A DNA stretch of 64,000 nt from Aptenodytes patagonicus. Its lineage: Eukaryota > Chordata > Aves > Sphenisciformes > Spheniscidae. The DNA lies in NCBI RefSeq assembly GCF_965638725.1, contig NW_027472011.1, forward strand, positions 651,633 through 715,632, given 5' to 3'. A program made the position numbers and the translations under genes. Below are positions 1 through 26,555 of the stretch, in pieces. The notes beneath the pieces are model-generated. The model did not search any database. It was not told where the DNA came from and worked only from the letters and a program-made list of their open reading frames with translations. Position 1 is the first letter of the stretch, and every line of letters starts with the position of its first letter.

Positions 1-224
1 GGCGGGGAGCCCTCTCCTGTGACGGGCTCAGGCACCGGGGGCCGGGGCAGGGCTGGGGGGCGAGTGGGCAGGGGCTGGCAGCGCCTGGAAAGCTGGAGGC
101 GATGGTGTGGGGTGACATGCGGGGGCTTTAATGACAGGCGTGTCCCTGGGAGCCTGGCGGACCACGGTGGGGGTGGGTGACGACGGCGCCCATGGGTGTC
201 CCCGGGGTGCAGCTGTGGCCAGGC

Positions 225-635
225 TCACGGGACCCTCCTGCAGTAGTAGATGGTCCTGGCTATGACACCTGGGGGAGAAGCGATGATGAGCGGCTGCGCC
301 CGTCGCCGCACCCAGCCCCGGCTGTGGGGACCGAGAGCTGGGACCCCTCGGCCATGGGGCCAGCCGGCACCACCGCTACCGCCACCAACATAGGCACCGG
401 CACCTCTGGGCACTGCCCAGTGCCACCTCCTCCTGCCAAGCCGCCTGCACTGCCAGCCGGCCCGGGGGCTCCTCTTGCGTCTCCTCTGCCGGGGCGGTGA
501 CAAGCGGACCCGCCGGCACATGGTGGTGGTGACGCGGGGCCGGTGGTGACGCTGGGCGGCCACCCTCCTCCTGCGGGCTGGGGCCGGCCCGTAGCCATGG
601 CGCCTGTGTGCAGCCGGGCGGCACCGTGGGGACAT
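225..635 (-). other. Candidate divergent Arg-rich open frame (136 codons)
   Basis: A minus-strand frame starting 147 bp upstream of the protamine ATG and pointing away from it. The predicted product is about 25% Arg (34 of 136) with blocks such as RRRKRSPR and CRRLGRRRW, and ends YYCRRVP. An ATTAAA at 127-132 (minus strand) lies 93 bp beyond the stop, and a TATA-like CTTTTATAGG overlaps the protamine TATA box on the opposite strand. The frame is kept in units 1-5 (copies at 4913, 9621, 14330, 19068; one Arg-to-His change in unit 4) and broken by a 7-bp deletion in unit 6. GC-rich DNA often yields Arg-rich frames by chance and no homologue is recognised, so coding status is doubtful. Confidence 0.22.
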
Positions 636-703
636 TGTGATGCCGCTGGTGATGCTGGCCCTGTAACGCGCCTCTGTCACAAAGGGCCTCGCCCCGGCAC
701 CCC

Positions 704-710
704 TATAAAA
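704..710 (+). promoter_or_regulatory. TATA box of protamine copy 1
   Basis: A perfect TATAAAA lies 78 bp upstream of the protamine ATG, in a GC-rich flank; transcription would start near 735. TGACG half-sites of the CRE type occur upstream (about 178, 531 and 548), a motif used by CREM in spermatid promoters, but no full palindrome was seen. Equivalent boxes are at 5392, 10100, 14809, 19547 and 24277. Confidence 0.8.
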
Positions 711-781
711 GCGGGGTGGGGGCGCAGAGCCAACCCGCGGCAGGGCAGGGCGGCTGGCCACCCCACTCGGCCAGCCCCAGC

Positions 782-1000
782 ATGGCCCGGTCCCGGCGCA
801 GCAGGTCCCGTAGCAGAAGCCGGCGCCGCCGCCGCAGCCTGGGCCACCAGAGACGCCCTCGCCGCCGATATGGCAGGAGCCGCCGCCGGCCTGCGGCACG
901 CAGCCGCAGGTATGGAAGCAGCCGCCGGCGGCCTGGGGCACGCAGCCGCCGGTCCGGAAGGAGCCGGCGGCGGCGTGGGGGACACAGCCTTCGCCGCTGA
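782..1000 (+). CDS. Protamine, copy 1 (72 aa)
   Basis: Sperm nuclear basic protein that replaces histones and compacts DNA in the sperm head. The 72-residue product has 36 arginines (50%), no lysine and no cysteine, and opens with MAR followed by alternating SR residues, as in chicken protamine (galline). Arg runs are broken by Ser, Pro, Tyr and Gly. Residues 33-46 and 47-60 form an internal duplication (SRRRPxARSRR core). The coding region is a single exon, as known for chicken protamine. The chosen ATG is the first one downstream of a TATA box 78 bp away; a frame-extending ATG at 716 would lie at or before the expected cap site. A poly(A) signal follows 82 bp after the stop. Avian protamines are usually about 60 residues, so this one is somewhat long. 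Confidence 0.92.
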   Translation: MARSRRSRSRSRSRRRRRSLGHQRRPRRRYGRSRRRPAARSRRYGSSRRRPGARSRRSGRSRRRRGGHSLRR

Positions 1001-1081
1001 GTAGACGCCAGCACTGGGCGTCTGCGGAGCCAGTGTCCCCGAGACCCCCGGCCGCCGCAGCACCGCGGCCCTGGCTCCATC

Positions 1082-1087
1082 AATAAA
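1082..1087 (+). promoter_or_regulatory. Poly(A) signal of protamine copy 1
   Basis: AATAAA 82 bp past the stop codon would give a compact intronless mRNA of roughly 370 nt before the tail. Equivalent signals: 5770, 10478, 15187, 19925 and 24652. Confidence 0.85.
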
Positions 1088-1189
1088 GCTGGAATGATTG
1101 AATGAGAGGTGTGCGTGTCCTTGGTGTCCCTGTGCGCCGGCTGCATGTCCCCTGGTGTCGTGTCCCACGGGTGGGCGTCCGTGTCTGCT

Positions 1190-1203
1190 GGGGGGGGGGG
1201 GGG
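1190..1203 (+). repeat. G-run downstream of protamine
   Basis: Fourteen consecutive G in unit 1. The length is 14 in units 2, 3 and 4, 15 in unit 5 and 10 in unit 6 (followed by A). It is the fastest-varying site of the unit. Confidence 0.9.
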
Positions 1204-1298
1204 TGTCCCATGGGTGCGCGTGTCCAGGACCAGCACACATCTCCGGGGATGGAGATGCCCCAGCCTGACTGCTCCTGTGCTGGCTCTGACCCCCATCT

Positions 1299-1455
1299 CC
1301 ACGTCCCCAACCCGCCTCCACGTCCCCAACCCATCTCCATGTCCCAGCCCATCTCCATGTCCCAACCCATCTTCTCGTCCCCAGCCCATCTCCATGTCCC
1401 AGCCCATCTTCATGTCCCAGTCCACCTCCACGTCCCCAGCCCATCTCCATGCCTC
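1299..1455 (+). repeat. 15-bp minisatellite of the protamine 3' flank
   Basis: About ten degenerate copies of CCCATCTCCATGTCC, directly before the CR1 3' end. The same tract is in units 2-6 (about 5987-6143, 10695-10851, 15404-15560, 20143-20299, 24865-25021). Confidence 0.85.
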
Positions 1456-1463
1456 CCGGGCAC

Positions 1464-2625
1464 TAGAATCAGAGAATCGTAGAAGCATTACGGTTGGAAA
1501 AGACCTCTAAGACCATCGAGTCCCACCGTCGACCCAACACCACCATGCCCACTACACCATGGCCCTAAGCGCCTCATCTACACGTCTTTTAAATACCTCC
1601 AGGGGTGGGGACTCAACCACTTCCCTGGGCAGCCTCTTCCAATGTTTAACCACTCTTCCAGTAAAGACATTTTTCCTCACGTCCATTCCAAACCTCCCCT
1701 GGCGCAACTTGAGGCCCTTTCCTCTCAAGGTCAAGCAGGACCTGCCTCTCATGAATCCGTGCTGGCTAGGCCGGATCCCCTGGTTGTCCCGCTCATGCCT
1801 TGTGAGCGCCCTCAAGATGAACCGCTCCATCATCTTCCCCGGCACCGAGGTCAGGCTGACAGGCCTGTAGTTCCCCGGATCCTCCTTCCGGCCCTTCCTG
1901 TAGAAGGGCGTCACATTGGCAAGCCTCCAGTCGCCCGGGACCTCCCCCGTTAACCAGGACTGCTGATGAATGATGGAGAGCGGCTTGGCAAGCTCCTCCG
2001 CCAGCTCCCTCAGCACTCTCGGGTGGATCCCATCCGGCCCCATAGACTTGTGAGCGTCCAGGTGGTGTAGCAGGTCATTGACTGCTTCCTCTTGGATTAC
2101 GGGGGGTTCATCCTGCTCGCCGTCCCTGTCTTCCAGCTCGGGGGGCCGAGTACCCTGAGGATAACTGGTCTGCCTGTTAAAGACTGAGGCAAAGAAGGCA
2201 TTGAGGACCTCAGCCTTTTCCTCATCCTCGGTGACAATGTTCCCCCCCGCATCCAGTAAGGGATGGAGATTCTCCTTGGCTCTCTTCTTGTCATTAATAT
2301 ATTTGTAAAAGCTTTTTTTGTTGTCTTTAACGACAGCGGCCAGATTGCGTTCTAGCTGGGCTTTTGCCTTTCTCATTTCTTCTCTGCACGACCTAACGAG
2401 ATCCCTGTACTCTTCTTGAGTCGCCTGCCCCTTCTTCCACAAGCGGTAAACTCTCCTTTTTTTCCTGAGTCCCAGCAAGACCTCCCCGTTCAGCCAGGCC
2501 GGTCGTCTTCCCCGCCCGTTCTTCTTACCGCGTACAGGGACAGCCTGCTCCTGCGCCTTTAAGGCTTCCTTCCTGAAGAGCGTCCAGCCTTCCTGGACCC
2601 CTTTGCCCTTCAGGACCGTCTCCCA
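1464..2625 (-). mobile_element. CR1 LINE, internally deleted (unit 1)
   Basis: Minus-strand chicken-repeat-1 retrotransposon. The 3' end (plus-strand 1464-1490) has the ATTCT-type short direct repeats typical of CR1. Reading leftwards, a 308-codon open frame (1552-2478) contains the CR1 ORF2 region before the reverse transcriptase and its first RT blocks (NYRPVSLTS), then jumps straight to the extreme C-terminus: about 960 bp holding the catalytic RT part are missing at about 1727. Further CR1 coding sequence without a usable start extends to about 2625. The 5' end is truncated, so the element is dead. It joins retroviral sequence at 2625/2626. Confidence 0.9.
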
Positions 2626-3074
2626 AAATTAAATTGCTTATTAACCTCGGACAAAACCAAAACAATATTCCCGAGAAGTACCAAGAGCAGTATCTTAACT
2701 ACCCAAGGATGTTCAAGATACTGAAAAGTGACTGTGATGGAGGAGGAAACACCATAGAAGAAGGTAGCGGCGCTGCCATGCTGTACCTCCTCCATAAAAA
2801 ACCTCTCAGAGGAAGAACTGTAATTGCTAATTGTCCCCACGCAGTGGTACCCGAAGGACAGGAATGGCTTCAGTGCAAAGCTCAAATACCAGGTTAAGCT
2901 CAAGGCCGGTGCTTTAATAACAAACCTCCCGGGCAAAACATCACTAATCACCGCAGGCCACAGCAAACTGCAAAACCCAACACTAATCTTTAACGTGTAC
3001 AGCCAAGAAAAGGGCATGGCGCAGATCACACAAACCAATATCGAGAACAGATGAATCAATGTTGTGACCCGCAA
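2610..3074 (-). other. Open frame of 154 codons in the retroviral internal fragment
   Basis: An uninterrupted frame in the endogenous retrovirus internal piece. It starts about 65 bp past the primer binding site and runs into the CR1 junction. The product would have a hydrophobic N-terminus (LFSILVCVICAMPFSWLY), further hydrophobic stretches and a C-terminal ILLLVLLGNIVLVL segment. I do not recognise it as gag, pol or env. It is intact in units 1-5 (2610, 7318, 12026, 16715, 21451), with one Leu-to-Ser change in unit 3. Lack of stops may simply reflect recent amplification of the array. Confidence 0.3.
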
Positions 3075-3138
3075 CTGCTAACGGGTATAAATTCCTTAAT
3101 GCGCTCTGGTTAATCTGTCGTTATCTCAAACCCTTCGG
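2626..3138 (-). mobile_element. Endogenous retrovirus leader/internal fragment
   Basis: AT-richer sequence directly downstream (in minus-strand sense) of the primer binding site. It is all that remains of the provirus interior; gag, pro, pol and env were not seen. At 2625/2626 it meets the CR1, with a short T-run as possible microhomology. Confidence 0.65.
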
Positions 3139-3156
3139 GCCCCACGTTGGGCGCCA
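3139..3156 (-). other. Retroviral primer binding site, tRNA-Lys type
   Basis: Read on the minus strand, the 18 bases TGGCGCCCAACGTGGGGC match the tRNA-Lys(1,2) primer binding site of betaretrovirus-like elements. It lies 8 bp past the LTR edge, which fixes the provirus orientation as minus strand. It is preserved in units 1-5. Confidence 0.8.
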
Positions 3157-3164
3157 AAAAGGAC

Positions 3165-3716
3165 TGTCGCGGTTCAACCTCAGCCGGCAACTGAGCCCCA
3201 CGCAGCCGCTCGCTGGGTGGGATGGGGGAGAGAATGGGAGGAGTAAAAGAGAGAAAACTCGTGGGTTGAGATAAGAACAGTTTAAGAGTTGAAATAAAAT
3301 AAAAGAGTAACAATAATAGCAACAATGATAAGAAAAGAATATACAAAGCAAGCGATGCACGATGCAGTTGCTCACCACCCGCCGACCGATGCCCAGCCAG
3401 TCCCTGAGCAGCGGCCCCCCCGGCCAGCTTCCCCCAGTTTAGGTACTGAGCATGATGTCCCATGGTATGGAATGTCCCTTTGGCCGGTTTGGGTCAGCTG
3501 TCCTGGCTGTGCCCCCTCCCAGCTTCTTGCGCACCTCCAGCCTGCTCAGTCGGCAGAGCACGGGAAGCTGAAAAGCCCTTGCCTAGTGTAAGCACTGCTC
3601 CGCAAGAACTACAACATCGCTGTGTTGTCAACATTGTTCTGGTCCTAAATCCAAAACACAGCTCTGTACCAGCTACTGGGAAGAAAATTAAAAATATACC
3701 AGCCAAAACCGGGACA
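3165..3716 (-). mobile_element. Endogenous retrovirus 5' LTR (unit 1), 552 bp
   Basis: Bounded by TG...CA on both strands (plus strand starts TGTCGCGGTT and ends AACCGGGACA), with the primer binding site on its left flank. It is therefore the 5' LTR of a minus-strand provirus. The type is very common in bird genomes. No second LTR is present in the unit, so the provirus has lost its 3' half. It was inserted into another LTR-type element that continues from 3717. Confidence 0.85.
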
Positions 3717-4279
3717 GATGCGCCCGAAGGAGGCTGTGACCCCGTGGGAAGCCCGCGCTGGAGCAGGTTTGCTGGCAGGACTTGTGACCCCGTGGGGGAC
3801 CCACGCTGGAGCAGTCAGTTCCGGAAGGACTGTGCCCCGTGGTGAGGACCCATGCTGGAGCAGACGCCCGTGGGAGGGACCCCACGCTGGAGCAGGGCAA
3901 GAGCGTGAGGAGGACGGAGCGGCAGAGACAATGTGCGATGAACTGGCCGCAAGCCCCATTCCCCGTCCCCCTGCGCCGCTCGGGCGGAGGAGGTGGAGAA
4001 TTTGGGAGGGAAGTTGAGCCTGGGGAGAAGGGAGGGGTGGGGGGAAGGGGTTTATAGATTTGTTCTTATCTCTCATTATCCTACTTCCTTGTTAATTGGC
4101 AATAAATTTATTTAATTTCCCCGACTCGAGCCTGTTTTGCCCGTGATGGTACTTGCGGAGTGATCTCCCTGCCCTGACCTCCACCCACGAGCCTTTTGTC
4201 GTGTTTTCTCCCCCTTGAGGAGGGCAGTGACGGAGCGGCTGGGTGGGCACCAGCGCCCAGCCAAGCTCAACCCACCCCA
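3717..4279 (-). mobile_element. Outer retroviral LTR remnant with short tandem repeats
   Basis: A second avian LTR-type sequence, minus orientation, starting TGGGGTGGGTTGAG at 4279 and running leftwards to the edge of the inserted LTR at 3716. The part at 3740-3900 is built from degenerate repeats with a GCTGGAGCAG core (about 30-50 bp apart). A 50-bp cycle of this repeat is gained in units 4 and 5. Minus-strand AATAAA and TTTATT-rich motifs lie near 4100. Confidence 0.7.
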
Positions 4280-5391
4280 GTGTCACCGCCGGCTCCACCG
4301 GAGCCATCGGCATCATCCTCCGGTCACGGCGGTGCACATCGTCCCCCACCACCGGCTCCCCGCTGCCCTCCACGCCCTCCCTGCCCCCTGCCCGGTGGGG
4401 GCAGCAGACCCCGGTTCGGAGCGTGGCTGGGAGCGGCCCCCGCCCGGCACAGAGCCCTGTGTGTGCCTGGGCTGCGTGTCCGGGGCTCCTTTCCGGGCTC
4501 CACCCTGGGGGTCCATCGCGGGGGTCCATCGCGGGGACCCCTGTGGGGACAGCCCATCCCCAGGTGCGCGGGACGTGGGCAGGGGCATGGGCAGGGCTCG
4601 GCTCAGCTCCCCGTCCCCGAGCCCCCAGCCCCAGCGCTGACGGCCCTTGTGCAGCCCATGGGGCCACTGGTCCCGCATCTCCGGGGCTGGCGGGGAGCCC
4701 TCTCCTGTGACGGGCTCAGGCACCGGGGGCCGGGGCAGGGCTGGGGGGCGAGTGGGCAGGGGCTGGCAGCGCCTGGAAAGCTGGAGGCGATGGTGTGGGG
4801 TGACATGCGGGGGCTTTAATGACAGGCGTGTCCCTGGGAGCCTGGCGGACCACGGTGGGGGTGGGTGACGACGGCGCCCATGGGTGTCCCCGGGGTGCAG
4901 CTGTGGCCAGGCTCACGGGACCCTCCTGCAGTAGTAGATGGTCCTGGCTATGACACCTGGGGGAGAAGCGATGATGAGCGGCTGCGCCCGTCGCCGCACC
5001 CAGCCCCGGCTGTGGGGACCGAGAGCTGGGACCCCTCGGCCATGGGGCCAGCCGGCACCACCGCTACCGCCACCAACATAGGCACCGGCACCTCTGGGCA
5101 CTGCCCAGTGCCACCTCCTCCTGCCAAGCCGCCTGCACTGCCAGCCGGCCCGGGGGCTCCTCTTGCGTCTCCTCTGCCGGGGCGGTGACAAGCGGACCCG
5201 CCGGCACATGGTGGTGGTGACGCGGGGCCGGTGGTGACGCTGGGCGGCCACCCTCCTCCTGCGGGCTGGGGCCGGCCCGTAGCCATGGCGCCTGTGTGCA
5301 GCCGGGCGGCACCGTGGGGACATTGTGATGCCGCTGGTGATGCTGGCCCTGTAACGCGCCTCTGTCACAAAGGGCCTCGCCCCGGCACCCC
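4280..5391. other. GC-rich spacer and upstream region of protamine copy 2
   Basis: This is the complete inter-element spacer (only its right part is visible before copy 1). It is GC-rich, has a short direct repeat (GGGGGTCCATCGC near 4508-4535), and no TE was recognised. On the minus strand it holds an Arg-rich 136-codon open frame (4913-5323) followed by ATTAAA at 4815-4820 (see findings). The same spacer recurs at 8988-10099, 13696-14808, 18435-19546 and 23171-24276. Confidence 0.7.
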
Positions 5392-5398
5392 TATAAAA
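5392..5398 (+). promoter_or_regulatory. TATA box of protamine copy 2
   Basis: TATAAAA 78 bp before the ATG; flanks identical to copy 1. Confidence 0.8.
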
Positions 5399-5469
5399 GC
5401 GGGGTGGGGGCGCAGAGCCAACCCGCGGCAGGGCAGGGCGGCTGGCCACCCCACTCGGCCAGCCCCAGC

Positions 5470-5688
5470 ATGGCCCGGTCCCGGCGCAGCAGGTCCCGTA
5501 GCAGAAGCCGGCGCCGCCGCCGCAGCCTGGGCCACCAGAGACGCCCTCGCCGCCGATATGGCAGGAGCCGCCGCCGGCCTGCGGCACGCAGCCGCAGGTA
5601 TGGAAGCAGCCGCCGGCGGCCTGGGGCACGCAGCCGCCGGTCCGGAAGGAGCCGGCGGCGGCGTGGGGGACACAGCCTTCGCCGCTGA
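5470..5688 (+). CDS. Protamine, copy 2 (72 aa)
   Basis: Protein identical to copy 1, with the same TATA box (5392) and AATAAA (5770). No base differences were noticed in the coding region. It sits 4688 bp from copy 1. Confidence 0.92.
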   Translation: MARSRRSRSRSRSRRRRRSLGHQRRPRRRYGRSRRRPAARSRRYGSSRRRPGARSRRSGRSRRRRGGHSLRR

Positions 5689-6151
5689 GTAGACGCCAGC
5701 ACTGGGCGTCTGCGGAGCCAGTGTCCCCGAGACCCCCGGCCGCCGCAGCACCGCGGCCCTGGCTCCATCAATAAAGCTGGAATGATTGAATGAGAGGTGT
5801 GCGTGTCCTTGGTGTCCCTGTGCGCCGGCTGCATGTCCCCTGGTGTCGTGTCCCACGGGTGGGCGTCCGTGTCTGCTGGGGGGGGGGGGGGTGTCCCATG
5901 GGTGCGCGTGTCCAGGACCAGCACACATCTCCGGGGATGGAGATGCCCCAGCCTGACTGCTCCTGTGCTGGCTCTGACCCCCATCTCCACGTCCCCAACC
6001 CGCCTCCACGTCCCCAACCCATCTCCATGTCCCAGCCCATCTCCATGTCCCAACCCATCTTCTCGTCCCCAGCCCATCTCCATGTCCCAGCCCATCTTCA
6101 TGTCCCAGTCCACCTCCACGTCCCCAGCCCATCTCCATGCCTCCCGGGCAC

Positions 6152-7333
6152 TAGAATCAGAGAATCGTAGAAGCATTACGGTTGGAAAAGACCTCTAAGA
6201 CCATCGAGTCCCACCGTCGACCCAACACCACCATGCCCACTACACCATGGCCCTAAGCGCCTCATCTACACGTCTTTTAAATACCTCCAGGGGTGGGGAC
6301 TCAACCACTTCCCTGGGCAGCCTCTTCCAATGTTTAACCACTCTTCCAGTAAAGACATTTTTCCTCACGTCCATTCCAAACCTCCCCTGGCGCAACTTGA
6401 GGCCGTTTCCTCTCAAGGTCAAGCAGGACCTGCCTCTCATGAATCCGTGCTGGCTAGGCCGGATCCCCTGGTTGTCCCGCTCATGCCTTGTGAGCGCCCT
6501 CAAGATGAACCGCTCCATCATCTTCCCCGGCACCGAGGTCAGGCTGACAGGCCTGTAGTTCCCCGGATCCTCCTTCCGGCCCTTCTTGTAGATGGGCGTC
6601 ACATTGGCAAGCCTCCAGTCGCCCCGGACCTCCCCCGGTCCTAAATCCATCCAGCAGTTAACCAGGACTGCTGATGAATGATGGAGAGCGGCTTGGCAAG
6701 CTCCTCCGCCAGCTCCCTCAGCACTCTCGGGTGGATCCCATCCGGCCCCATAGACTTGTGAGCGTCCAGGTGGTGTAGCAGGTCATTGACTGCTTCCTCT
6801 TGGATTACGGGGGGTTCATCCTGCTCGCCGTCCCTGTCTTCCAGCTCGGGGGGCCGAGTACCCTGAGGATAACTGGTCTGCCTGTTAAAGACTGAGGCAA
6901 AGAAGGCATTGAGGACCTCAGCCTTTTCCTCATCCTCGGTGACAATGTTCCCCCCCGCATCCAGTAAGGGATGGAGATTCTCCTTGGCTCTCTTCTTGTC
7001 ATTAATATATTTGTAAAAGCTTTTTTTGTTGTCTTTAACGACAGCGGCCAGATTGCGTTCTAGCTGGGCTTTTGCCTTTCTCATTTCTTCTCTGCACGAC
7101 CTAACGAGATCCCTGTACTCTTCTTGAGTCGCCTGCCCCTTCTTCCACAAGCGGTAAACTCTCCTTTTTTTCCTGAGTCCCAGCAAGACCTCCCCGTTCA
7201 GCCAGGCCGGTCGTCTTCCCCGCCCGTTCTTCTTACCGCGTACAGGGACAGCCTGCTCCTGCGCCTTTAAGGCTTCCTTCTTGAAGAGCGTCCAGCCTTC
7301 CTGGACCCCTTTGCCCTTCAGGACCGTCTCCCA
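6152..7333 (-). mobile_element. CR1 LINE, internally deleted (unit 2)
   Basis: Same element and same internal deletion as unit 1, but a 20-bp insertion near 6638-6657 splits the open frame into pieces of 136 codons (6240-6650) and 181 codons (6641-7186). Near 6580-6595 it keeps the Ile-Tyr-Lys-Lys form where unit 1 has Phe-Tyr-Arg-Lys. Confidence 0.9.
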
Positions 7334-10177: not shown

Positions 10178-10396
10178 ATGGCCCGGTCCCGGCGCAGCAG
10201 GTCCCGTAGCAGAAGCCGGCGCCGCCGCCGCAGCCTGGGCCACCAGAGACGCCCTCGCCGCCGATATGGCAGGAGCCGCCGCCGGCCTGCGGCACGCAGC
10301 CGCAGGTATGGAAGCAGCCGCCGGCGGCCTGGGGCACGCAGCCGCCGGTCCGGAAGGAGCCGGCGGCGGCATGGGGGACACAGCCTTCGCCGCTGA
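10178..10396 (+). CDS. Protamine, copy 3 (72 aa, R65H)
   Basis: Identical to copy 1 except for one CpG-type change (CGT to CAT near 10370) that replaces Arg65 by His in the C-terminal Arg run. Length, promoter and poly(A) signal (10478) are intact, so it should be functional. It is the only substitution variant among the six. Confidence 0.92.
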   Translation: MARSRRSRSRSRSRRRRRSLGHQRRPRRRYGRSRRRPAARSRRYGSSRRRPGARSRRSGRSRRRHGGHSLRR

Positions 10397-10859: not shown

Positions 10860-12041
10860 TAGAATCAGAGAATCGTAGAAGCATTACGGTTGGAAAAGAC
10901 CTCTAAGACCATCGAGTCCCACCGTCGACCCAACACCACCATGCCCACTACACCATGGCCCTAAGCGCCTCATCTACACGTCTTTTAAATACCTCCAGGG
11001 GTGGGGACTCAACCACTTCCCTGGGCAGCCTCTTCCAATGTTTAACCACTCTTCCAGTAAAGACATTTTTCCTCACGTCCATTCCAAACCTCCCCTGGCG
11101 CAACTTGAGGCCCTTTCCTCTCAAGGTCAAGCAGGACCTGCCTCTCATGAATCCGTGCTGGCTAGGCCGGATCCCCTGGTTGTCCCGCTCATGCCTTGTG
11201 AGCGCCCTCAAGATGAACCGCTCCATCATCTTCCCCGGCACCGAGGTCAGGCTGACAGGCCTGTAGTTCCCCGGATCCTCCTTCCGGCCCTTCTTGTAGA
11301 TGGGCGTCACATTGGCAAGCCTCCAGTCGCCCCGGACCTCCCCCGGTCCTAAATCCATCCAGCAGTTAACCAGGACTGCTGATGAATGATGGAGAGCGGC
11401 TTGGCAAGCTCCTCCGCCAGCTCCCTCAGCACTCTCGGGTGGATCCCATCCGGCCCCATAGACTTGTGAGCGTCCAGGTGGTGTAGCAGGTCATTGACTG
11501 CTTCCTCTTGGATTACGGGGGGTTCATCCTGCTCGCCGTCCCTGTCTTCCAGCTCGGGGGGCCAAGTACCCTGAGGATAACTGGTCTGCCTGTTAAAGAC
11601 TGAGGCAAAGAAGGCATTGAGGACCTCAGCCTTTTCCTCATCCTCGGTGACAATGTTCCCCCCCGCATCCAGTAAGGGATGGAGATTCTCCTTGGCTCTC
11701 TTCTTGTCATTAATATATTTGTAAAAGCTTTTTTTGTTGTCTTTAACGACAGCGGCCAGATTGCGTTCTAGCTGGGCTTTTGCCTTTCTCATTTCTTCTC
11801 TGCACGACCTAACGAGATCCCTGTACTCTTCTTGAGTCGCCTGCCCCTTCTTCCACAAGCGGTAAACTCTCCTTTTTTTCCTGAGTCCCAGCAAGACCTC
11901 CCCGTTCAGCCAGGCCGGTCGTCTTCCCCGCCCGTTCTTCTTACCGCGTACAGGGACAGCCTGCTCCTGCGCCTTTAAGGCTTCCTTCCTGAAGAGCGTC
12001 CAGCCTTCCTGGACCCCTTTGCCCTTCAGGACCGTCTCCCA
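10860..12041 (-). mobile_element. CR1 LINE, internally deleted (unit 3)
   Basis: As in unit 2, with the same 20-bp insertion (about 11346-11365) splitting the frame, plus one missense change (Arg to Trp) near 11564. Confidence 0.9.
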
Positions 12042-14808: not shown

Positions 14809-14815
14809 TATAAAA
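14809..14815 (+). promoter_or_regulatory. TATA box of protamine copy 4
   Basis: TATAAAA 78 bp before the ATG of copy 4. Confidence 0.8.
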
Positions 14816-15105: not shown

Positions 15106-15568
15106 GTAGACGCCAGCACTGGGCGTCTGCGGAGCCAGTGTCCCCGAGACCCCCGGCCGCCGCAGCACCGCGGCCCTGGCTCCATCAATAAAGCTGGAAT
15201 GATTGAATGAGAGGTGTGCGTGTCCTTGGTGTCCCTGTGCGCCGGCTGCATGTCCCCTGGTGTCGTGTCCCACGGGTGGGCGTCCGTGTCTGCTGGGGGG
15301 GGGGGGGGTGTCCCATGGGTGCGCGTGTCCAGGACCAGCACACATCTCCGGGGATGGAGATGCCCCAGCCTGACTGCTCCTGTGCTGGCTCTGACCCCCA
15401 TCTCCACGTCCCCAACCCGCCTCCACGTCCCCAACCCATCTCCATGTCCCAGCCCATCTCCATGTCCCAACCCATCTTCTCGTCCCCAGCCCATCTCCAT
15501 GTCCCAGCCCATCTTCATGTCCCAGTCCACCTCCACGTCCCCAGCCCATCTCCATGCCTCCCGGGCAC

Positions 15569-16730
15569 TAGAATCAGAGAATCGTAGAAGCATTACGGTT
15601 GGAAAAGACCTCTAAGACCATCGAGTCCCACCGTCGACCCAACACCACCATGCCCACTACACCATGGCCCTAAGCGCCTCATCTACACGTCTTTTAAATA
15701 CCTCCAGGGGTGGGGACTCAACCACTTCCCTGGGCAACCTCTTCCAATGTTTAACCACTCTTCCAGTAAAGACATTTTTCCTCACGTCCATTCCAAACCT
15801 CCCCTGGCGCAACTTGAGGCCCTTTCCTCTCAAGGTCAAGCAGGACCTGCCTCTCATGAATCCGTGCTGGCTAGGCCGGATCCCCTGGTTGTCCCGCTCA
15901 TGCCTTGTGAGCGCCCTCAAGATGAACCGCTCCATCATCTTCCCCGGCACCGAGGTCAGGCTGACAGGCCTGTAGTTCCCCGGATCCTCCTTCCGGCCCT
16001 TCCTGTAGATGGGCGTCACATTGGCAAGCCTCCAGTCGCCCGGGACCTCCCCCGTTAACCAGGACTGCTGATGAATGATGGAGAGCGGCTTGGCAAGCTC
16101 CTCCGCCAGCTCCCTCAGCACTCTCGGGTGGATCCCATCCGGCCCCATAGACTTGTGAGCGTCCAGGTGGTGTAGCAGGTCATTGACTGCTTCCTCTTGG
16201 ATTACGGGGGGTTCATCCTGCTCGCCGTCCCTGTCTTCCAGCTCGGGGGGCCGAGTACCCTGAGGATAACTGGTCTGCCTGTTAAAGACTGAGGCAAAGA
16301 AGGCATTGAGGACCTCAGCCTTTTCCTCATCCTCGGTGACAATGTTCCCCCCCGCATCCAGTAAGGGATGGAGATTCTCCTTGGCTCTCTTCTTGTCATT
16401 AATATATTTGTAAAAGCTTTTTTTGTTGTCTTTAACGACAGCGGCCAGATTGCGTTCTAGCTGGGCTTTTGCCTTTCTCATTTCTTCTCTGCACGACCTA
16501 ACGAGATCCCTGTACTCTTCTTGAGTCGCCTGCCCCTTCTTCCACAAGCGGTAAACTCTCCTTTTTTTCCTGAGTCCCAGCAAGACCTCCCCGTTCAGCC
16601 AGGCCGGTCGTCTTCCCCGCCCGTTCTTCTTACCGCGTACAGGGACAGCCTGCTCCTGCGCCTTTAAGGCTTCCTTCCTGAAGAGCGTCCAGCCTTCCTG
16701 GACCCCTTTGCCCTTCAGGACCGTCTCCCA
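15569..16730 (-). mobile_element. CR1 LINE, internally deleted (unit 4)
   Basis: Has the uninterrupted 308-codon frame of unit 1 (15657-16583) without the 20-bp insertion, and reads Ile where unit 1 has Phe near 16010. Confidence 0.9.
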
Positions 16731-18434
16731 AAATTAAATTGCTTATTAACCTCGGACAAAACCAAAACAATATTCCCGAGAAGTACCAAGAGCAGTATCT
16801 TAACTACCCAAGGATGTTCAAGATACTGAAAAGTGACTGTGATGGAGGAGGAAACACCATAGAAGAAGGTAGCGGCGCTGCCATGCTGTACCTCCTCCAT
16901 AAAAAACCTCTCAGAGGAAGAACTGTAATTGCTAATTGTCCCCACGCAGTGGTACCCGAAGGACAGGAATGGCTTCAGTGCAAAGCTCAAATACCAGGTT
17001 AAGCTCAAGGCCGGTGCTTTAATAACAAACCTCCCGGGCAAAACATCACTAATCACCGCAGGCCACAGCAAACTGCAAAACCCAACACTAATCTTTAACG
17101 TGTACAGCCAAGAAAAGGGCATGGCGCAGATCACACAAACCAATATCGAGAACAGATGAATCAATGTTGTGACCCGCAACTGCTAACGGGTATAAATTCC
17201 TTAATGCGCTCTGGTTAATCTGTCGTTATCTCAAACCCTTCGGGCCCCACGTTGGGCGCCAAAAAGGACTGTCGCGGTTCAACCTCAGCCGGCAACTGAG
17301 CCCCACGCAGCCGCTCGCTGGGTGGGATGGGGGAGAGAATGGGAGGAGTAAAAGAGAGAAAACTCGTGGGTTGAGATAAGAACAGTTTAAGAGTTGAAAT
17401 AAAATAAAAGAGTAACAATAATAGCAACAATGATAAGAAAAGAATATACAAAGCAAGCGATGCACGATGCAGTTGCTCACCACCCGCCGACCGATGCCCA
17501 GCCAGTCCCTGAGCAGCGGCCCCCCCGGCCAGCTTCCCCCAGTTTAGGTACTGAGCATGATGTCCCATGGTATGGAATGTCCCTCTGGCCGGTTTGGGTC
17601 AGCTGTCCTGGCTGTGCCCCCTCCCAGCTTCTTGTGCACCTCCAGCCTGCTCAGTCGGCAGAGCACGGGAAGCTGAAAAGCCCTTGCCTAGTGTAAGCAC
17701 TGCTCCGCAAGAACTACAACATCGCTGTGTTGTCAACATTGTTCTGGTCCTAAATCCAAAACACAGCTCTGTACCAGCTACTGGGAAGAAAATTAAAAAT
17801 ATACCAGCCAAAACCGGGACAGATGCGCCCGAAGGAGGCTGTGACCCCGTGGGAAGCCCGCGCTGGAGCAGGCTCCTGGCAGGACTTGTGGCCCTGTGGA
17901 GAGGAGCCCGCGCTGGAGCAGGTTTGCTGGCAGGACTTGTGACCCCGTGGGGGACCCACGCTGGAGCAGTCAGTTCTGGAAGGACTGTGCCCCGTGGTGA
18001 GGACCCACGCTGGAGCAGACGCCCGTGGGAGGGACCCCACGCTGGAGCAGGGCAAGAGCGTGAGGAGGACGGAGCGGCAGAGACAATGTGCGATGAACTG
18101 GCCGCAAGCCCCATTCCCCGTCCCCCTGCGCCGCTCGGGCGGAGGAGGTGGAGAATTTGGGAGGGAAGTTGAGCCTGGGGAGAAGGGAGGGGTGGGGGGA
18201 AGGGGTTTATAGATTTGTTCTTATCTCTCATTATCCTACTTCCTTGTTAATTGGCAATAAATTTATTTAATTTCCCCGACTCGAGCCTGTTTTGCCCGTG
18301 GTGGTACTTGCGGAGTGATCTCCCTGCCCTGACCTCCACCCACGAGCCTTTTGTCGTGTTTTCTCCCCCTTGAGGAGGGCAGTGACGGAGCGGCTGGGTG
18401 GGCACCAGCGCCCAGCCAAGCTCAACCCACCCCA
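16731..18434 (-). mobile_element. Nested endogenous retrovirus block (unit 4)
   Basis: Internal fragment 16731-17243, primer binding site 17244-17261, LTR 17270-17821, outer LTR remnant 17822-18434, which is 50 bp longer because one GCTGGAGCAG repeat cycle is added at 17872-17921. Confidence 0.8.
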
Positions 18435-19624: not shown

Positions 19625-19843
19625 ATGGCCCGGTCCCGGCGCAGCAGGTCCCGCAGCAGAAGCCGGCGCCGCCGCCGCAGCCTGGGCCACCAGAGACGCC
19701 CTCGCCGCCGATATGGCAGGAGCCGCCGCCGGCCTGCGGCACGCAGCCGCAGGTATGGAAGCAGCCGCCGGCGGCCTGGGGCACGCAGCCGCCGGTCCGG
19801 AAGGAGCCGGCGGCGGCGTGGGGGACACAGCCTTCGCCGCTGA
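19625..19843 (+). CDS. Protamine, copy 5 (72 aa)
   Basis: Protein identical to copy 1. One synonymous change (CGT to CGC, codon 10) marks this copy. Poly(A) signal at 19925. Confidence 0.92.
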   Translation: MARSRRSRSRSRSRRRRRSLGHQRRPRRRYGRSRRRPAARSRRYGSSRRRPGARSRRSGRSRRRRGGHSLRR

Positions 19844-20307
19844 GTAGACGCCAGCACTGGGCGTCTGCGGAGCCAGTGTCCCCGAGACCCCCGGCCGCCG
19901 CAGCACCGCGGCCCTGGCTCCATCAATAAAGCTGGAATGATTGAATGAGAGGTGTGCGTGTCCTTGGTGTCCCTGTGCGCCGGCTGCGTGTCCCCTGGTG
20001 TCGTGTCCCACGGGTGGGCGTCCGTGTCTGCTGGGGGGGGGGGGGGGTGTCCCATGGGTGCGCGTGTCCAGGACCAGCACACATCTCCGGGGATGGAGAT
20101 GCCCCAGCCTGACTGCTCCTGTGCTGGCTCTGACCCCCATCTCCACGTCCCCAACCCGCCTCCACGTCCCCAACCCATCTCCATGTCCCAGCCCATCTCC
20201 ATGTCCCAACCCATCTTCTCGTCCCCAGCCCATCTCCATGTCCCAGCCCATCTTCATGTCCCAGTCCACCTCCACGTCCCCAGCCCATCTCCATGCCTCC
20301 CGGGCAC

Positions 20308-21466
20308 TAGAATCAGAGAATCGTAGAAGCATTACGGTTGGAAAAGACCTCTAAGACCATCGAGTCCCACCGTCGACCCAACACCACCATGCCCACTACA
20401 CCATGGCCCTAAGCGCCTCATCTACACGTCTTTTAAATACCTCCAGGGGTGGGGACTCAACCACTTCCCTGGGCAGCCTCTTCCAATGTTTAACCACTCT
20501 TCCAGTAAAGACATTTTTCCTCACGTCCATTCCAAACCTCCCCTGGCGCAACTTGAGGCCCTTTCCTCTCAAGGTCAAGCAGGACCTGCCTCTCATGAAT
20601 CCGTGCTGGCTAGGCCGGATCCCCTGGTTGTCCCGCTCATGCCTTGTGAGCGCCCTCAAGATGAACCGCTCCATCATCTTCCCCGGCACCGAGGTCAGGC
20701 TGACAGGCCTGTAGTTCCCCGGATCCTCCTTCCGGCCCTTCCTGTAGATGGTCACATTGGCAAGCCTCCAGTCGCCCGGGACCTCCCCCGTTAACCAGGA
20801 CTGCTGATGAATGATGGAGAGCGGCTTGGCAAGCTCCTCCGCCAGCTCCCTCAGCACTCTCGGGTGGATCCCATCCGGCCCCATAGACTTGTGAGCGTCC
20901 AGGTGGTGTAGCAGGTCATTGACTGCTTCCTCTTGGATTACGGGGGGTTCATCCTGCTCGCCGTCCCTGTCTTCCAGCTCGGGGGGCCGAGTACCCTGAG
21001 GATAACTGGTCTGCCTGTTAAAGACTGAGGCAAAGAAGGCATTGAGGACCTCAGCCTTTTCCTCATCCTCGGTGACAATGTTCCCCCCCGCATCCAGTAA
21101 GGGATGGAGATTCTCCTTGGCTCTCTTCTTGTCATTAATATATTTGTAAAAGCTTTTTTTGTTGTCTTTAACGACAGCGGCCAGATTGCGTTCTAGCTGG
21201 GCTTTTGCCTTTCTCATTTCTTCTCTGCACGACCTAACGAGATCCCTGTACTCTTCTTGAGTCGCCTGCCCCTTCTTCCACAAGCGGTAAACTCTCCTTT
21301 TTTTCCTGAGTCCCAGCAAGACCTCCCCGTTCAGCCAGGCCGGTCGTCTTCCCCGCCCGTTCTTCTTACCGCGTACAGGGACAGCCTGCTCCTGCGCCTT
21401 TAAGGCTTCCTTCCTGAAGAGCGTCCAGCCTTCCTGGACCCCTTTGCCCTTCAGGACCGTCTCCCA
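20308..21466 (-). mobile_element. CR1 LINE, internally deleted (unit 5)
   Basis: Frame of 307 codons (20396-21319). A 3-bp deletion near 20752 removes one residue before the NYRPVSLTS block. Otherwise as in units 1 and 4. Confidence 0.9.
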
Positions 21467-23170
21467 AAATTAAATTGCTTATTAACCTCGGACAAAACCA
21501 AAACAATATTCCCGAGAAGTACCAAGAGCAGTATCTTAACTACCCAAGGATGTTCAAGATACTGAAAAGTGACTGTGATGGAGGAGGAAACACCATAGAA
21601 GAAGGTAGCGGCGCTGCCATGCTGTACCTCCTCCATAAAAAACCTCTCAGAGGAAGAACTGTAATTGCTAATTGTCCCCACGCAGTGGTACCCGAAGGAC
21701 AGGAATGGCTTCAGTGCAAAGCTCAAATACCAGGTTAAGCTCAAGGCCGGTGCTTTAATAACAAACCTCCCGGGCAAAACATCACTAATCACCGCAGGCC
21801 ACAGCAAACTGCAAAACCCAACACTAATCTTTAACGTGTACAGCCAAGAAAAGGGCATGGCGCAGATCACACAAACCAATATCGAGAACAGATGAATCAA
21901 TGTTGTGACCCGCAACTGCTAACGGGTATAAATTCCTTAATGCGCTCTGGTTAATCTGTCGTTATCTCAAACCCTTCGGGCCCCACGTTGGGCGCCAAAA
22001 AGGACTGTCGCGGTTCAACCTCAGCCGGCAACTGAGCCCCACGCAGCCGCTCGCTGGGTGGGATGGGGGAGAGAATGGGAGGAGTAAAAGAGAGAAAACT
22101 CGTGGGTTGAGATAAGAACAGTTTAAGAGTTGAAATAAAATAAAAGAGTAACAATAATAGCAACAATGATAAGAAAAGAATATACAAAGCAAGCGATGCA
22201 CGATGCAGTTGCTCACCACCCGCCGACCGATGCCCAGCCAGTCCCTGAGCAGCGGCCCCCCCGGCCAGCTTCCCCCAGTTTAGGTACTGAGCATGATGTC
22301 CCATGGTATGGAATGTCCCTTTGGCCGGTTTGGGTCAGCTGTCCTGGCCGTGCCCCCTCCCAGCTTCTTGCGCACCTCCAGCCTGCTCAGTCGGCAGAGC
22401 ACGGGAAGCTGAAAAGCCCTTGCCTAGTGTAAGCACTGCTCCGCAAGAACTACAACATCGCTGTGTTGTCAACATTGTTCTGGTCCTAAATCCAAAACAC
22501 AGCTCTGTACCAGCTACTGGGAAGAAAATTAAAAATATACCAGCCAAAACCGGGACAGATGCGCCCGAAGGAGGCTGTGACCCCGTGGGAAGCCCGCGCT
22601 GGAGCAGGCTCCTGGCAGGACTTGTGGCCCTGTGGAGAGGAGCCCGCGCTGGAGCAGGTTTGCTGGCAGGACTTGTGACCCCGTGGGGGACCCACGCTGG
22701 AGCAGTCAGTTCCGGAAGGACTGTGCCCCGTGGTGAGGACCCACGCTGGAGCAGACGCCCGTGGGAGGGACCCCACGCTGGAGCAAGGCAAGAGCGTGAG
22801 GAGGACGGAGCGGCAGAGACAATGTGCGATGAACTGGCCGCAAGCCCCATTCCCCGTCCCCCTGCGCCGCTCGGGCGGAGGAGGTGGAGAATTTGGGAGG
22901 GAAGTTGAGCCTGGGGAGAAGGGAGGGGTGGGGGGAAGGGGTTTATAGATTTGTTCTTATCTCTCATTATCCTACTTCCTTGTTAATTGGCAATAAATTT
23001 ATTTAATTTCCCCGACTCGAGCCTGTTTTGCCCGTGGTGGTACTTGCGGAGTGATCTCCCTGCCCTGACCTCCACCCACGAGCCTTTTGTCGTGTTTTCT
23101 CCCCCTTGAGGAGGGCAGTGACGGAGCGGCTGGGTGGGCACCAGCGCCCAGCCAAGCTCAACCCACCCCA
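21467..23170 (-). mobile_element. Nested endogenous retrovirus block (unit 5)
   Basis: Internal fragment 21467-21979, primer binding site 21980-21997, LTR 22006-22557, outer LTR remnant 22558-23170 with the 50-bp extra repeat cycle at about 22608-22657. Confidence 0.8.
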
Positions 23171-24276
23171 GTGTCACCGCCGGCTGCACCGGAGCCATCG
23201 GCATCATCCTCCGGTCACGGCGGTGCACATCGTCCCCCACCACCGGCTCCCCGCTGCCCTCCACGCCCTCCCTGCCCCCTGCCCGGTGGGGGCAGCAGAC
23301 CCCGGTTCGGAGCGTGGCTGGGAGCGGCCCCCGCCCGGCACAGAGCCCTGTGTGTGCCTGGGCTGCGTGTCCGGGGCTCCTTTCCGGGCTCCACCCTGGG
23401 GGTCCATCGCGGGGGTCCATCGCGGGGACCCCTGTGGGGACAGCCCATCCCCAGGTGCGCGGGACGTGGGCAGGGGCATGGGCAGGGCTCGGCTCAGCCC
23501 CCCCGTCCCCGAGCCCCCAGCCCCAGCGCTGACGGCCCTTGTGCAGCCCATGGGGCCACTGGTCCCGCATCCCCGGGGCTGGCGGGGAGCCCTCTCCTGT
23601 GACGGGCTCAGGCACCGGGGGCCGGGGCAGGGCTGGGGGGCGAGTGGGCAGGGGCTGGCAGCGCCTGGAAAGCTGGAGGCGATGGTGTGGGGTGACATGC
23701 GGGGGCTTTAATGACAGGCGTGTCCCTGGGAGCCTGGCGGACCACGGTGGGGGTGGGTGACGACGGCGCCCATGGGTGTCCCCGGGGTGCAGCTGTGGCC
23801 AGGCTCACGGGACCCTCCTGCAGTAGTAGATGGTCCTGGCTATGACACCTGGGGGAGAAGCGATGATGAGCGGCTGCGCCCGTCGCCGCACCCAGCCCCG
23901 GCTGTGGGGACCGAGAGCTGGGACCCCTCGGCCATGGGGCCAGCCGGCACCACTGCTACCGCCACCAACATAGGCACTGGCACCTCTGCCCAGTGCCACC
24001 TCCTCCTGCCAAGCCGCCTGCACTGCCAGCCGGCCCGGGGGCTCCTCTTGCGTCTCCTCTGCCGGGGCGGTGACAAGCGGACCCGCCGGCACATGGTGGT
24101 GGTGACGCGGGGCCGGTGGTGACGCTGGGCGGCCACCCTCCTCCTGCGGGCTGGGGCCGGCCCGTAGCCATGGCGCCTGTGTGCAGCCGGGCGGCACCGT
24201 GGGGACATTGTGATGCCGCTGGTGATGCTGGCCCTGTAACGCGCCTCTGTCACAAAGGGCCTCGCCCCGGCACCCC

Positions 24277-24283
24277 TATAAAA
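24277..24283 (+). promoter_or_regulatory. TATA box of protamine copy 6
   Basis: TATAAAA 78 bp before the ATG of copy 6. Confidence 0.8.
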
Positions 24284-24354
24284 GCGGGGTGGGGGCGCAG
24301 AGCCAACCCGCGGCAGGGCAGGGCGGCTGGCCACCCCACTCGGCCAGCCCCAGC

Positions 24355-24570
24355 ATGGCCCGGTCCCGGCGCAGCAGGTCCCGTAGCAGAAGCCGGCGCC
24401 GCCGCCGCAGCCTGGGCCACCAGAGACGCCCTCGCCGCCGATATGGTAGGAGCCGCCGGCCTGCGGCACGCAGCCGCAGGTATGGAAGCAGCCGCCGGCG
24501 GCCTGGGGCACGCAGCCGCCGGTCCGGAAGGAGCCGGCGGCGGCGTGGGGGACACAGCCTTCGCCGCTGA
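24355..24570 (+). CDS. Protamine, copy 6 (71 aa, one Arg deleted)
   Basis: Same protein as copy 1 but one Arg codon of the run at residues 34-36 is missing (near 24455). A silent change lies just before it. Poly(A) signal at 24652. Reading frame, promoter and start are otherwise intact, so it should be functional. It is the copy nearest the array edge. Confidence 0.92.
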   Translation: MARSRRSRSRSRSRRRRRSLGHQRRPRRRYGRSRRPAARSRRYGSSRRRPGARSRRSGRSRRRRGGHSLRR

Positions 24571-25029
24571 GTAGACGCCAGCACTGGGCGTCTGCGGAGC
24601 CAGTGTCCCCGAGACCCCCGGCCGCCGCAGCACCGCGGCCCTGGCTCCATCAATAAAGCTGGAATGATTGAATGAGAGGTGTGCGTGTCCTTGGTGTCCC
24701 TGTGCGCCGGCTGCATGTCCCCTGGTGTCGTGTCCCACGGGTGGGTGTCCGTGTCTGCTGGGGGGGGGATGTCCCATGGGTGCGCGTGTCCAGGACCAGC
24801 ACACATCTCCGGGGATGGAGGTGCCCCAGCCTGACTGCTCCTGTGCTGGCTCTGACCCCCATCTCCACGTCCCCAACCCGCCTCCACGTCCCCAACCCAT
24901 CTCCATGTCCCAGCCCATCTCCATGTCCCAACCCATCTTCTCGTCCCCAGCCCATCTCCATGTCCCAGCCCATCTTCATGTCCCAGTCCACCTCCACGTC
25001 CCCAGCCCATCTCCATGCCTCCCGGGCAC

Positions 25030-26555
25030 TAGAATCAGAGAATCGTAGAAGCATTACGGTTGGAAAAGACCTCTAAGACCATCGAGTCCCACCGTCGACC
25101 CAACACCACCATGCCCACTACACCATGGCCCTAAGCGCCTCATCTACACGTCTTTTAAATACCTCCAGGGGTGGGGACTCAACCACTTCCCTGGGCAGCC
25201 TCTTCCAATGTTTAACCACTCTTCCAGTAAAGACATTTTTCCTCACGTCCAATCTAAACCTCCCCTGGCGCAACTTGAGGCCCTTTCCTCTCGTCCTACC
25301 GCTTGTTACTTGGGAGAAGAGACCGACCCCCACCTCGCTACAACCTCCTTGCAGGTGGTTGTAGAGAGCGATGAGGTCTCCCCTCAGCCTCCTTTTCTCC
25401 AGGCTAAACAACCCCAGTTCCCTCAGCTGCTCCTCAGAAGACTTCTTCTCCAGACCCCTCACCAGCCTCGTTGCCCTTCTCTGGACACGCTCCAGCACCT
25501 CGACGTCCTTCTTGGAGTGAGGGGCCCAAAACTGAACACAGCGTTCGAGGTGCGGCCTCACCAGGGCCGAGTACAGGGGCACGATCGCTTCCCTACTGCT
25601 GCTGGCCACACTGTTTCTGATACAGGCCAGGGTGCCATTGGCCTTCTTGGCCGCCTGGGCACACTGCCGGCTCATGTTCAGCCGGCTGTCGACCAGCACC
25701 CCCAGGTCCTTTTCCGCCGGGCAGCTTTCCAGCCACTCTTCCCCAAGCCTGTAGCGCTACATGGGGTTGTTATGGCCGGAGTGCAGGACCCGGCACTTGG
25801 CCTTGTTGAACTGCACACAATTGGCCTCGGCCCATCGATCCAGCCTGTCCAGGTCCCTCTGCAGAGCCTTCCTACCCTCAAGCAGATCAACGCTCCCGCC
25901 CAACCTGGTGTCATCAGCAAACTGACTGAGGGTGCACTCAATCCCCTCATCCAGATCATCGATAAAGATATTAAACAAGACCGGCCCCAAAACTGAGCCC
26001 TGGGGAACACCGCTCGTGACCAGCCGCCAACTGGATGTAACTCCATTCACCACAACTCTCTGGGCCCGGCCGTCCAGCCAGTTTTTGACCCAGCGCAGAG
26101 TACACCTGTCTGAGCCATGAGCCGCCAGCTTCTCTAGGAGAATGCTGTGGGAGACGGTGTCAAAGGCCTTGCTGAAGTCCAGGTAGAGCACATCCACAGC
26201 CTTTCCCTCATCCACTAGGCGGGTCACCTGGTCATAGAAGGAGATCAGGTCGGTCAAGCAGGACCTGCCTCTCATGAATCCGTGCTGGCTAGGCCGGATC
26301 CCCTGGTTGTCCCGCTCATGCCTTGTGAGCGCCCTCAAGATGAACCGCTCCATCATCTTCCCCGGCACCGAGGTCAGGCTGACAGGCCTGTAGTTCCCCG
26401 GATCCTCCTTCCGGCCCTTCCTGTAGATGGGCGTCACATTGGCAAGCCTCCAGTCGCCCGGGACCTCCCCCGTTAACCAGGACTGCTGATGAATGATGGA
26501 GAGCGGCTTGGCAAGCTCCTCCGCCAGCTCCCTCAGCACTCTCGGGTGGATCCCA
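25030..26555 (-). mobile_element. CR1 LINE with reverse transcriptase retained (unit 6)
   Basis: Minus-strand CR1 without the internal deletion of the other units. Reading leftwards, the RT blocks NYRPVSLTS, the [13 protein letters not shown] block, [10 protein letters not shown] and the catalytic FADD box appear in order, then the CR1 C-terminal part ([10 protein letters not shown], the RPHLE and RVQRRAT blocks) to the end at 25118. One in-frame stop near 25757-25759 separates a long upstream frame from the 193-codon C-terminal frame, so ORF2 is broken. The 5' side is cut at the array border (26555). Confidence 0.92.

Follow-up and report, generated by a model that had tools for sequence, protein, structure and literature searches.

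A 4.7-kb unit with a protamine-like gene, repeated head to tail in 104 copies over 499 kb of a bird contig

The window, that is, the whole 64,000-nucleotide stretch of Aptenodytes patagonicus DNA analysed here, occupies positions 651,633-715,632 of a 715,632-base contig (C50). Its left part is made of six head-to-tail units of 4.69-4.74 kb (successive copy-to-copy spacings 4688, 4708, 4709, 4738 and 4730), each with one protamine-like gene, and these units (C50:651,633-678,187) form the right-hand end of an array of 499 kb (C50:179,207-678,187) that lies on a single contig, with its genes all on the same strand, between a CPXM1-like gene and an EBF gene (Table 1).

Table 1. Features of the window, numbered from its first base
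Feature	Position	Strand	Basis or remark
Right-hand array end: the terminal unit, preceded by five full ones	1..26555	+	Unit comparison
Protamine-like frame, copy 1, 72 aa, 50% Arg	782..1000	+	ORF
Protamine-like frame, copy 2, 72 aa	5470..5688	+	ORF
Protamine-like frame, copy 3, 72 aa, R65H	10178..10396	+	ORF
TATAAA of copy 4	14809..14814	+	Equivalents at 704, 5392, 10100, 19547, 24277
Protamine-like frame, copy 4, 72 aa	14887..15105	+	ORF
TCCATCAATAAA, poly(A) signal sharing one base with TCCATCA motif	15181..15192	+	In 6 of 6 copies
CR1-type LINE piece in unit 4, without the 959-bp stretch of unit 6	15590..16735	-	Limits by eye; equivalents in units 1-5
Protamine-like frame, copy 5 (72 aa; codon 10 silently changed)	19625..19843	+	ORF and copy comparison
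Protamine-like frame, copy 6 (71 aa; lacks one Arg codon, codon 31 silently changed)	24355..24570	+	ORF and copy comparison
CR1 piece of terminal unit, including the 959 bp (25293-26251)	25030..26555	-	Left limit by eye
Right-neighbour gene for an EBF (COE) transcription factor; COE1_DBD and TIG domain exons	35905..48861	-	Pfam; outer exon limits by eye
RNF145/RNF139-like gene; TRC8_N in three exons tested	59963..61974	-	RNF145 label and outer limits by eye

Frames starting with ATG, of at least 50 aa and with at least 45% Arg, numbered 6 of the 379 in the window vs. 0 of the 15,385 in 40 first-order Markov shuffles, so these Arg-rich frames are not due to chance. TATAAA stands 78 bp upstream of the ATG, and AATAAA 82 bp downstream of the stop, in all six window copies, and both distances were identical in 30 of 30 copies checked; a single uninterrupted frame with these signals nearby would fit the intronless form of avian protamine genes. 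The TCCATCA that overlaps the poly(A) signal is, in the mouse PRM1 3'UTR, a target of YBX2/YBX3 (PMC7825780, in excerpt). The exact motif was matched by 334 of 100,000 shuffles, and for the degenerate Y-box consensus the signal is weak, with 1286 of 5000 shuffles doing as well.

Chicken protamine (galline, of the P1 family) is a 62-aa protein encoded by an intronless, single-exon gene present at two loci. The gene in the array is likewise small, Arg-rich and apparently single-exon, with a protein start of MARxRRSRxRSRS and two RYG[SR] motifs, but it encodes 72 aa with a 14-aa repeat and stands in a 104-copy array. The copy 1-type protein, at 50% Arg, falls within the range for protamines (short, about 50-75 aa, and half Arg), and two RYG[SR] motifs were reached in 20 of 20,000 shuffles. 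Aligned to a galline sequence not taken from a database, it scored 141, vs. 106 ± 8.8 for shuffles (6 of 5000 as high), and 12 of its first 16 residues were identical to that sequence, as equalled by 2 of 20,000 shuffles. Low-power searches with the ORF of Pfam (including Protamine_P1, PF00260), of PDB and by phmmer gave no match at E ≤ 10 to a named protamine, a protein search with this galline sequence as query gave no match, and PF00260 matched nowhere in the whole genome, 14 control genomes being equally silent. In local phmmer runs the ORF and this galline sequence missed each other, though each matched itself; the blank searches thus tell us no more than that they reached no named protein nearly identical to the query. 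These blanks, together with this galline sequence as sole comparator, would suit a different small Arg-rich nuclear protein that is not a protamine, yet we find this quite improbable given the length, the Arg content, the start, the two motifs and the compact TATA-to-AATAAA gene. By composition, gene form and likeness to the chicken protein, the gene is very probably an avian protamine (galline) orthologue or close paralogue.

A preliminary description of this DNA had reported at least six head-to-tail protamine units, with intact frames and identical TATA spacing, in an array exceeding the window. All of this held, and the tandem amplification proved far larger than the window showed, continuing leftwards to 179,207. 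A search of the 1.352-Gb assembly with the 34-nt start pattern (at most two mismatches) gave 107 forward and 3 reverse matches, with 0 for the reversed-pattern control; 104 of the forward matches are on the array contig (100 listed, plus window copies 3-6), and six start-region matches in the assembly (3 forward, 3 reverse) fall outside the array. The array thus counted has 104 gene copies, plus two gene-less units between its left edge, placed by unit mapping, and the first gene at ~190 kb. Neighbouring gene copies are spaced 4,717 bp apart on average; with a largest spacing of 5,892 bp, the array interior has no room for a whole unit without a gene. At the right edge (678,187), unit homology stops exactly at window position 26,555.

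Copy number could have been misjudged, with a real number much below (or above) 104, if the assembly were at fault: two units match exactly across 4,729 bp and many are 1-3 bases apart, perhaps beyond what reads can resolve, and our reading of the middle 351 kb consists of small stretches. Such an artefact is nonetheless very improbable, given unit-specific indels (7, 20, 50 and 959 bp), 15 distinct coding sequences among 44 copies read, two array ends that both fall within one contig and are bordered by non-array sequence, and a single 100% match in the assembly for part of the flank on the EBF side. We state with high confidence that in the assembly a gene with its own TATA box, a short 5' leader, an Arg-rich frame of 58-72 aa and a poly(A) signal, in a 4.7-kb unit, is present in 104 head-to-tail copies over 499 kb. 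With units longer than 1 kb, tens of head-to-tail copies and a frame per gene unit (46 of the 104 frames read, all open), the array fits the coding megasatellites, and it also falls under SNBP amplification, taken as at least five copies at one location.

Among the 46 fully read coding frames, 44 were of 71-72 aa and two of 58 aa, one 14-aa repeat having been removed in frame from the latter. The distance from the start to the C-terminal part was 113, 110 and 107 nt in 68, 29 and 5 of 102 copies, respectively, all in frame, and the remaining two copies are the 58-aa ones; for the other 58 frames, the start and C-terminal patterns show in-frame spacing. Among the matches listed, mismatches never exceeded one for the 34-nt start (100 of 107) or two for the 111-nt C-terminal part (100 of 102). 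The copy-specific variants named in the preliminary description (R65H, an Arg deletion and the silent change in codon 10) were all present, and the commonest protein forms, in 18 and 11 of 44 copies, are one Arg apart. R50W and S33R are further variants specific to certain copies, and the distances predict a 70-aa form as well.

Divergence among read units averaged 0.42%, with the end units differing most: the first and last gene-bearing units were on average 0.59% and 0.75% from the rest, vs. 0.34-0.49% for the other 27 units. In the 23 left-hand units, divergence was 0.24% at lag 1, rose to 0.33-0.39% at lags 2-11, and was 0.25% at lag 12 and 0.23% at lag 13; a block of 12-13 units recurs in the array. 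Two units were identical across 4,729 bp, and many others differed by 1-3 bases. Near-identical units, divergent ends and the recurring block together indicate that unequal exchange and the duplication of blocks have both generated the copies and held them close in sequence. In window units 1-5, of 21 informative site pairs 6 broke the four-gamete rule, a single site being involved in five of the six, and among the window copies neighbours were no closer than distant copies (44 of the 120 orders as good).

Within the frame, 44 copies held 10 nonsynonymous and 2 synonymous variant sites (~0.69:0.30 expected without selection), and 8 of the 10 nonsynonymous sites lose an Arg. Diversity in 28 units was 0.0066 in the frame vs. 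0.0042 at unit positions 1100-4700, and neither the variant sites of the 44 copies nor the diversity of the 28 units gave a detectable sign that single copies are under purifying selection. The main rival to a dosage role is neutral expansion: unequal crossing-over on a GC-rich contig, aided by repeats like CR1, would have produced a neutral megasatellite in which the protamine is a passenger and few copies matter. Frame substitutions that look neutral, a gene core about as variable as the remaining unit, whole loss of the gene from two units and the existence of other coding megasatellites all agree with it. We nevertheless rate it as somewhat unlikely, since every frame read is open, gene-less units are confined to the left edge, and indel types were in frame in 3 of 3 cases inside the frame (3, 6 and 42 bp) vs. 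1 of 6 outside (P = 0.048), although the frame's repeat structure favours in-frame slips and the 6-bp type comes from distances only. As to function, the sequence evidence is neutral.

The best explanation overall, which we consider probable, is a protamine megasatellite in which the many promoters serve to increase output of the protein. On this reading the copies, multiplied and homogenised by the exchange and duplication described above, would all or mostly be transcribed in round spermatids, and a higher copy number would then give more stored mRNA for protamine synthesis at histone replacement, much as gene arrays do for other bulk structural products. Protamine, a sperm protein sensitive to dose, normally comes from one or a few genes. 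Dosage matters in other animals (PMC10120018; PMC10944935, both in excerpt). Mammals manage with few protamine genes, PRM1 and PRM2 (PMC10120018, in excerpt), so 104 copies are unnecessary for packaging as such, and the dosage role of copy number itself is put forward tentatively. The array makes one ask why a gene normally found once or a few times should be needed, or tolerated, as a long repeat in sperm packaging; its ~104 natural copies would allow the limiting effect of protamine dose on packaging to be tested directly, along with any variation of array length between males and its relation to sperm traits.

Human coding megasatellites (the RS447/USP17, D4Z4/DUX4 and TSPY arrays) resemble the bird array: each of their kilobase-sized units carries a frame, and exchange homogenises the copies, which number from tens to about a hundred. 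Their products, unlike that of the bird array, are not a bulk sperm chromatin protein, and individual copy-number variation is known for them, vs. one assembly here. Genetic conflict, in which copies multiply by biasing sperm success (through drive, sperm competition or suppression), may also be considered by analogy with what has been proposed for Drosophila SNBP arrays, the nearest studied case. In its favour, SNBP genes were amplified 20 times across 80 drosophilid species, in many cases in tandem and mostly recently (PMC9917458, in excerpt), and Mst77Y overexpression is described, in an excerpted source, as disturbing compaction. Against it, 16 of those 20 events are on sex chromosomes (PMC9917458, in excerpt), and the array contig carries genes, presumably neighbours at human 20p13, that look autosomal. 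Protein diversification in the bird array is small, as the near-identity of its two commonest forms attests, and we regard conflict as an improbable origin. The fly amplifications (Prot, tHMG, Mst77Y) are alike in being tandem, young, many-copy arrays of sperm chromatin genes (PMC9917458, in excerpt), whereas HMG-box proteins are what the majority of amplified fly copies encode, most of those copies are sex-chromosomal, and the bird product is Arg-rich and protamine-like; the array also bears on whether vertebrates amplify SNBP genes outside X/Y conflicts such as those known from flies. The PHF7 expansion of turkey and chicken is likewise an expanded avian spermiogenesis gene family (PMC10360393, in excerpt), but PHF7 has its role in the exchange of histones for protamine, and its copies are grouped in several clusters that are no protamine array.

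The preliminary description knew of no account of such an array, in agreement with the open-access literature searched, subscription journals being mostly outside that coverage. That this might be the first vertebrate protamine megasatellite, in which array length would set a fast-changing, individual-specific protamine dose and unequal exchange would feed packaging variation to sperm competition or drive, is a speculation that we think unlikely.

As to other content of the unit, its further frames (eight, and four taken first) gave against Pfam a clear match only to CR1 reverse transcriptase, and Rfam gave none at gathering score over window positions 1-30,000. CR1 runs uninterrupted through the right-hand homology break, and gave no sign there of CR1-to-CR1 recombination as the founding event. 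Among the best 120 of 7996 matches to the CR1 reverse transcriptase, many rows are nameless and every species-named one is a bird, including stork, crane, godwit, sandpiper, goose, ducks and swallow. Further CR1 pieces occur on the same contig.

The six head-to-tail units on the + strand of the window, each with a short Arg-rich frame, stood as the preliminary description had them, and so did its claim that the array exceeds the window: homology to the 4.7-kb unit continues leftward on C50, the contig carrying the window, as far as C50:179,207. The window forms the right end of this contig (715,632 bases), in an assembly of 1.352 Gb and 618 contigs, and unit 6 is the terminal unit. A genome search for the array returned 259 candidates, and all 40 that were scored lay on C50. 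The array is a very large coding repeat in this assembly and most likely a protamine megasatellite.

Features of the protamine-like array and its surroundings
Feature	Position	Detail
Unit homology, whole	C50:179,207-678,187	498,981 bp
Right end of unit homology	window 26,555
Two leftmost, gene-less units (L016, L017)	C50:179,207-189,379	common deletion of unit positions 711-1327, 617 bp
Identical units (frame positions)	C50:233,381 and 252,217	identical across 4,729 bp
Contracted copies (L048, L049)	C50:411,605 and 416,244	58 aa
Longer units	C50:491,165 and 637,177	spacing 5,288 and 5,892 bp
20-bp insertion, units 2 and 3	window 6637-6656 and 11345-11364	within CR1
Unit-like piece outside the array (L010)	C50:116,725-117,285	561 bp, 98.8% identity to unit positions 3164-3725, in dynactin gene region
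Right flank	window 26,556-64,000	~70% G+C, minisatellite-rich

Gene copies were counted assembly-wide with two patterns. The 34-nt start pattern (at most two mismatches) had 107 forward and three reverse matches; all 100 of the matches listed were on C50, and adding window copies 3-6 gives 104 there, all on the + strand, so that the other three forward matches lie outside the array. The three reverse matches were absent from the 324,000 fully read letters of C50. The 111-nt C-terminal pattern (at most three mismatches) had 102 forward and no reverse matches, all accounted for on C50 (100 of the 100 listed, plus window copies 5 and 6); therefore the six extra start matches (three forward, three reverse) are without that C-terminal half. 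These six are probably diverged protamine-like loci.

Complete reading covered C50:1-60,000, C50:100,001-300,000 and the window; from the sequence between these, 15 stretches of ~350 bp each and a single 3.5-kb locus were also read. Coding frames were fully read for 46 of the 104 copies (30 from contiguous sequence, 13 from the short stretches, one from locus L004 and the two contracted copies), and all 46 were open; the 44 of 71-72 aa comprised 15 nucleotide and 11 protein forms. The start-to-C-terminus distance was 113, 110 or 107 nt (68, 29 and 5 of 102 copies), always in frame; the other 58 copies may hold a substitution-made stop in their unread parts, mainly codons 10-36. The contracted copies, which are adjacent and without the C-terminal pattern, have an in-frame 42-bp contraction, leaving one 14-aa repeat fewer, and an assembly search with this form gave full-length matches solely at these two places. 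Arg-rich frames like those of the array go beyond composition: at least 45% Arg occurred in 6 of 379 real window frames vs. 0 of 15,385 shuffled ones.

The identical TATA spacing previously claimed was borne out, with TATAAA 78 bp 5' of the ATG in all six window units; AATAAA lies 82 bp 3' of the stop in the same six. Its size, an Arg share of 50%, the form of the gene and its resemblance to galline (chicken protamine) make it most likely a protamine; profile methods gave no decision either way on this identity. At the 3' end of the gene, TCCATCA overlaps AATAAA by one base in all six window copies, and a review names UCCAUCA as the YBX2/YBX3 target in the mouse PRM1 3'UTR (PMC7825780). The exact motif arose in 334 of 100,000 shuffles of the 105-nt 3' stretch, and it also stands at seven other + strand window sites, six of them within CR1 by the unit map.

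Among the 44 copies, 10 nonsynonymous and 2 synonymous variant sites were found, in agreement with neutrality (expectation ~0.69:0.30, P = 0.53), and diversity over 28 units was 0.0066 in the frame, 0.0028 at unit positions 1-700 and 0.0042 at 1100-4700. All three indel types inside the frame (3, 6 and 42 bp) were of frame-preserving size vs. one of six outside (P = 0.048), a weak contrast, since repeats of 3 and 42 bp make up the frame and the 6-bp type was deduced from distances. Thus, no guarding of individual copies is visible, and the array is either young or well mixed. Arg was lost at 8 of the 10 amino-acid variant sites, giving way to H, C, L or W, a pattern similar to what CpG decay in Arg codons would yield.

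Window units 1-5 differ from each other by 7-18 substitutions over ~4.7 kb, and mean pairwise divergence was 0.42% among 29 aligned units; averages were 0.59% for the first gene-bearing unit, 0.75% for the last and 0.34-0.49% for the rest. Within the left-hand group of 23 units, lags 12 (0.25%) and 13 (0.23%) showed divergence as low as lag 1 (0.24%), with lags 2-11 at 0.33-0.39%, and therefore a block of 12-13 units (~56-61 kb) was copied. The four-gamete rule was broken by 6 of 21 informative-site pairs in the window, five via one site, which is weak evidence. Together with the identical units, these observations are the pattern expected of unequal exchange with less homogenised edges.

The deletion common to the two gene-less units runs from just 3' of TATAAAA to beyond the poly(A) signal, removing the gene. 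A 959-bp stretch of CR1 (the LINE element within each unit) is retained in these two, in the leftmost gene-bearing unit and in the rightmost unit of the array, but is missing from all other fully read units. Since neighbouring gene copies are at most 5,892 bp apart, the array holds no further whole gene-less unit; the spacing of the two longer units implies insertions in their unread parts. The 20-bp insertion in units 2 and 3, with two nearby changes also common to both, looks as if it had been patched in from a different CR1 copy. The CR1 reverse transcriptase best matches bird proteins (up to 88%).

Searches of the open-access literature, PMC8812575, PMC9258737, PMC11186999 and PMC10360393 among it, turned up no account of a protamine array in birds. 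The nearest known process is the amplification of sperm chromatin protein (SNBP) genes reported in Drosophila (PMC9917458). Avian piRNA loci are described as structural-variant hot spots (PMC9925758), and a link to the array is possible, as a lead only, because read-through of the unit would yield RNA antisense to CR1.

Outward from the left end of the array lie genes for a peptidase M14 (CPXM1-like), Vps16, isocitrate dehydrogenase (IDH3B-like), a Nop-domain protein (NOP56-like) and dynactin, names beyond Pfam domains being assigned by eye. The piece in the dynactin region is probably a dispersed repeat that the unit also contains. To the right stand an EBF/COE gene and then a TRC8_N (RNF145-like) gene; the former is probably EBF4, since NOP56, IDH3B, VPS16, CPXM1 and EBF4 are neighbours on human 20p13. 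A stretch of 1.5 kb taken from the EBF gene had one 100% match in the assembly, the rest reaching at most 83%, and the gene spans only ~13 kb in the right flank.
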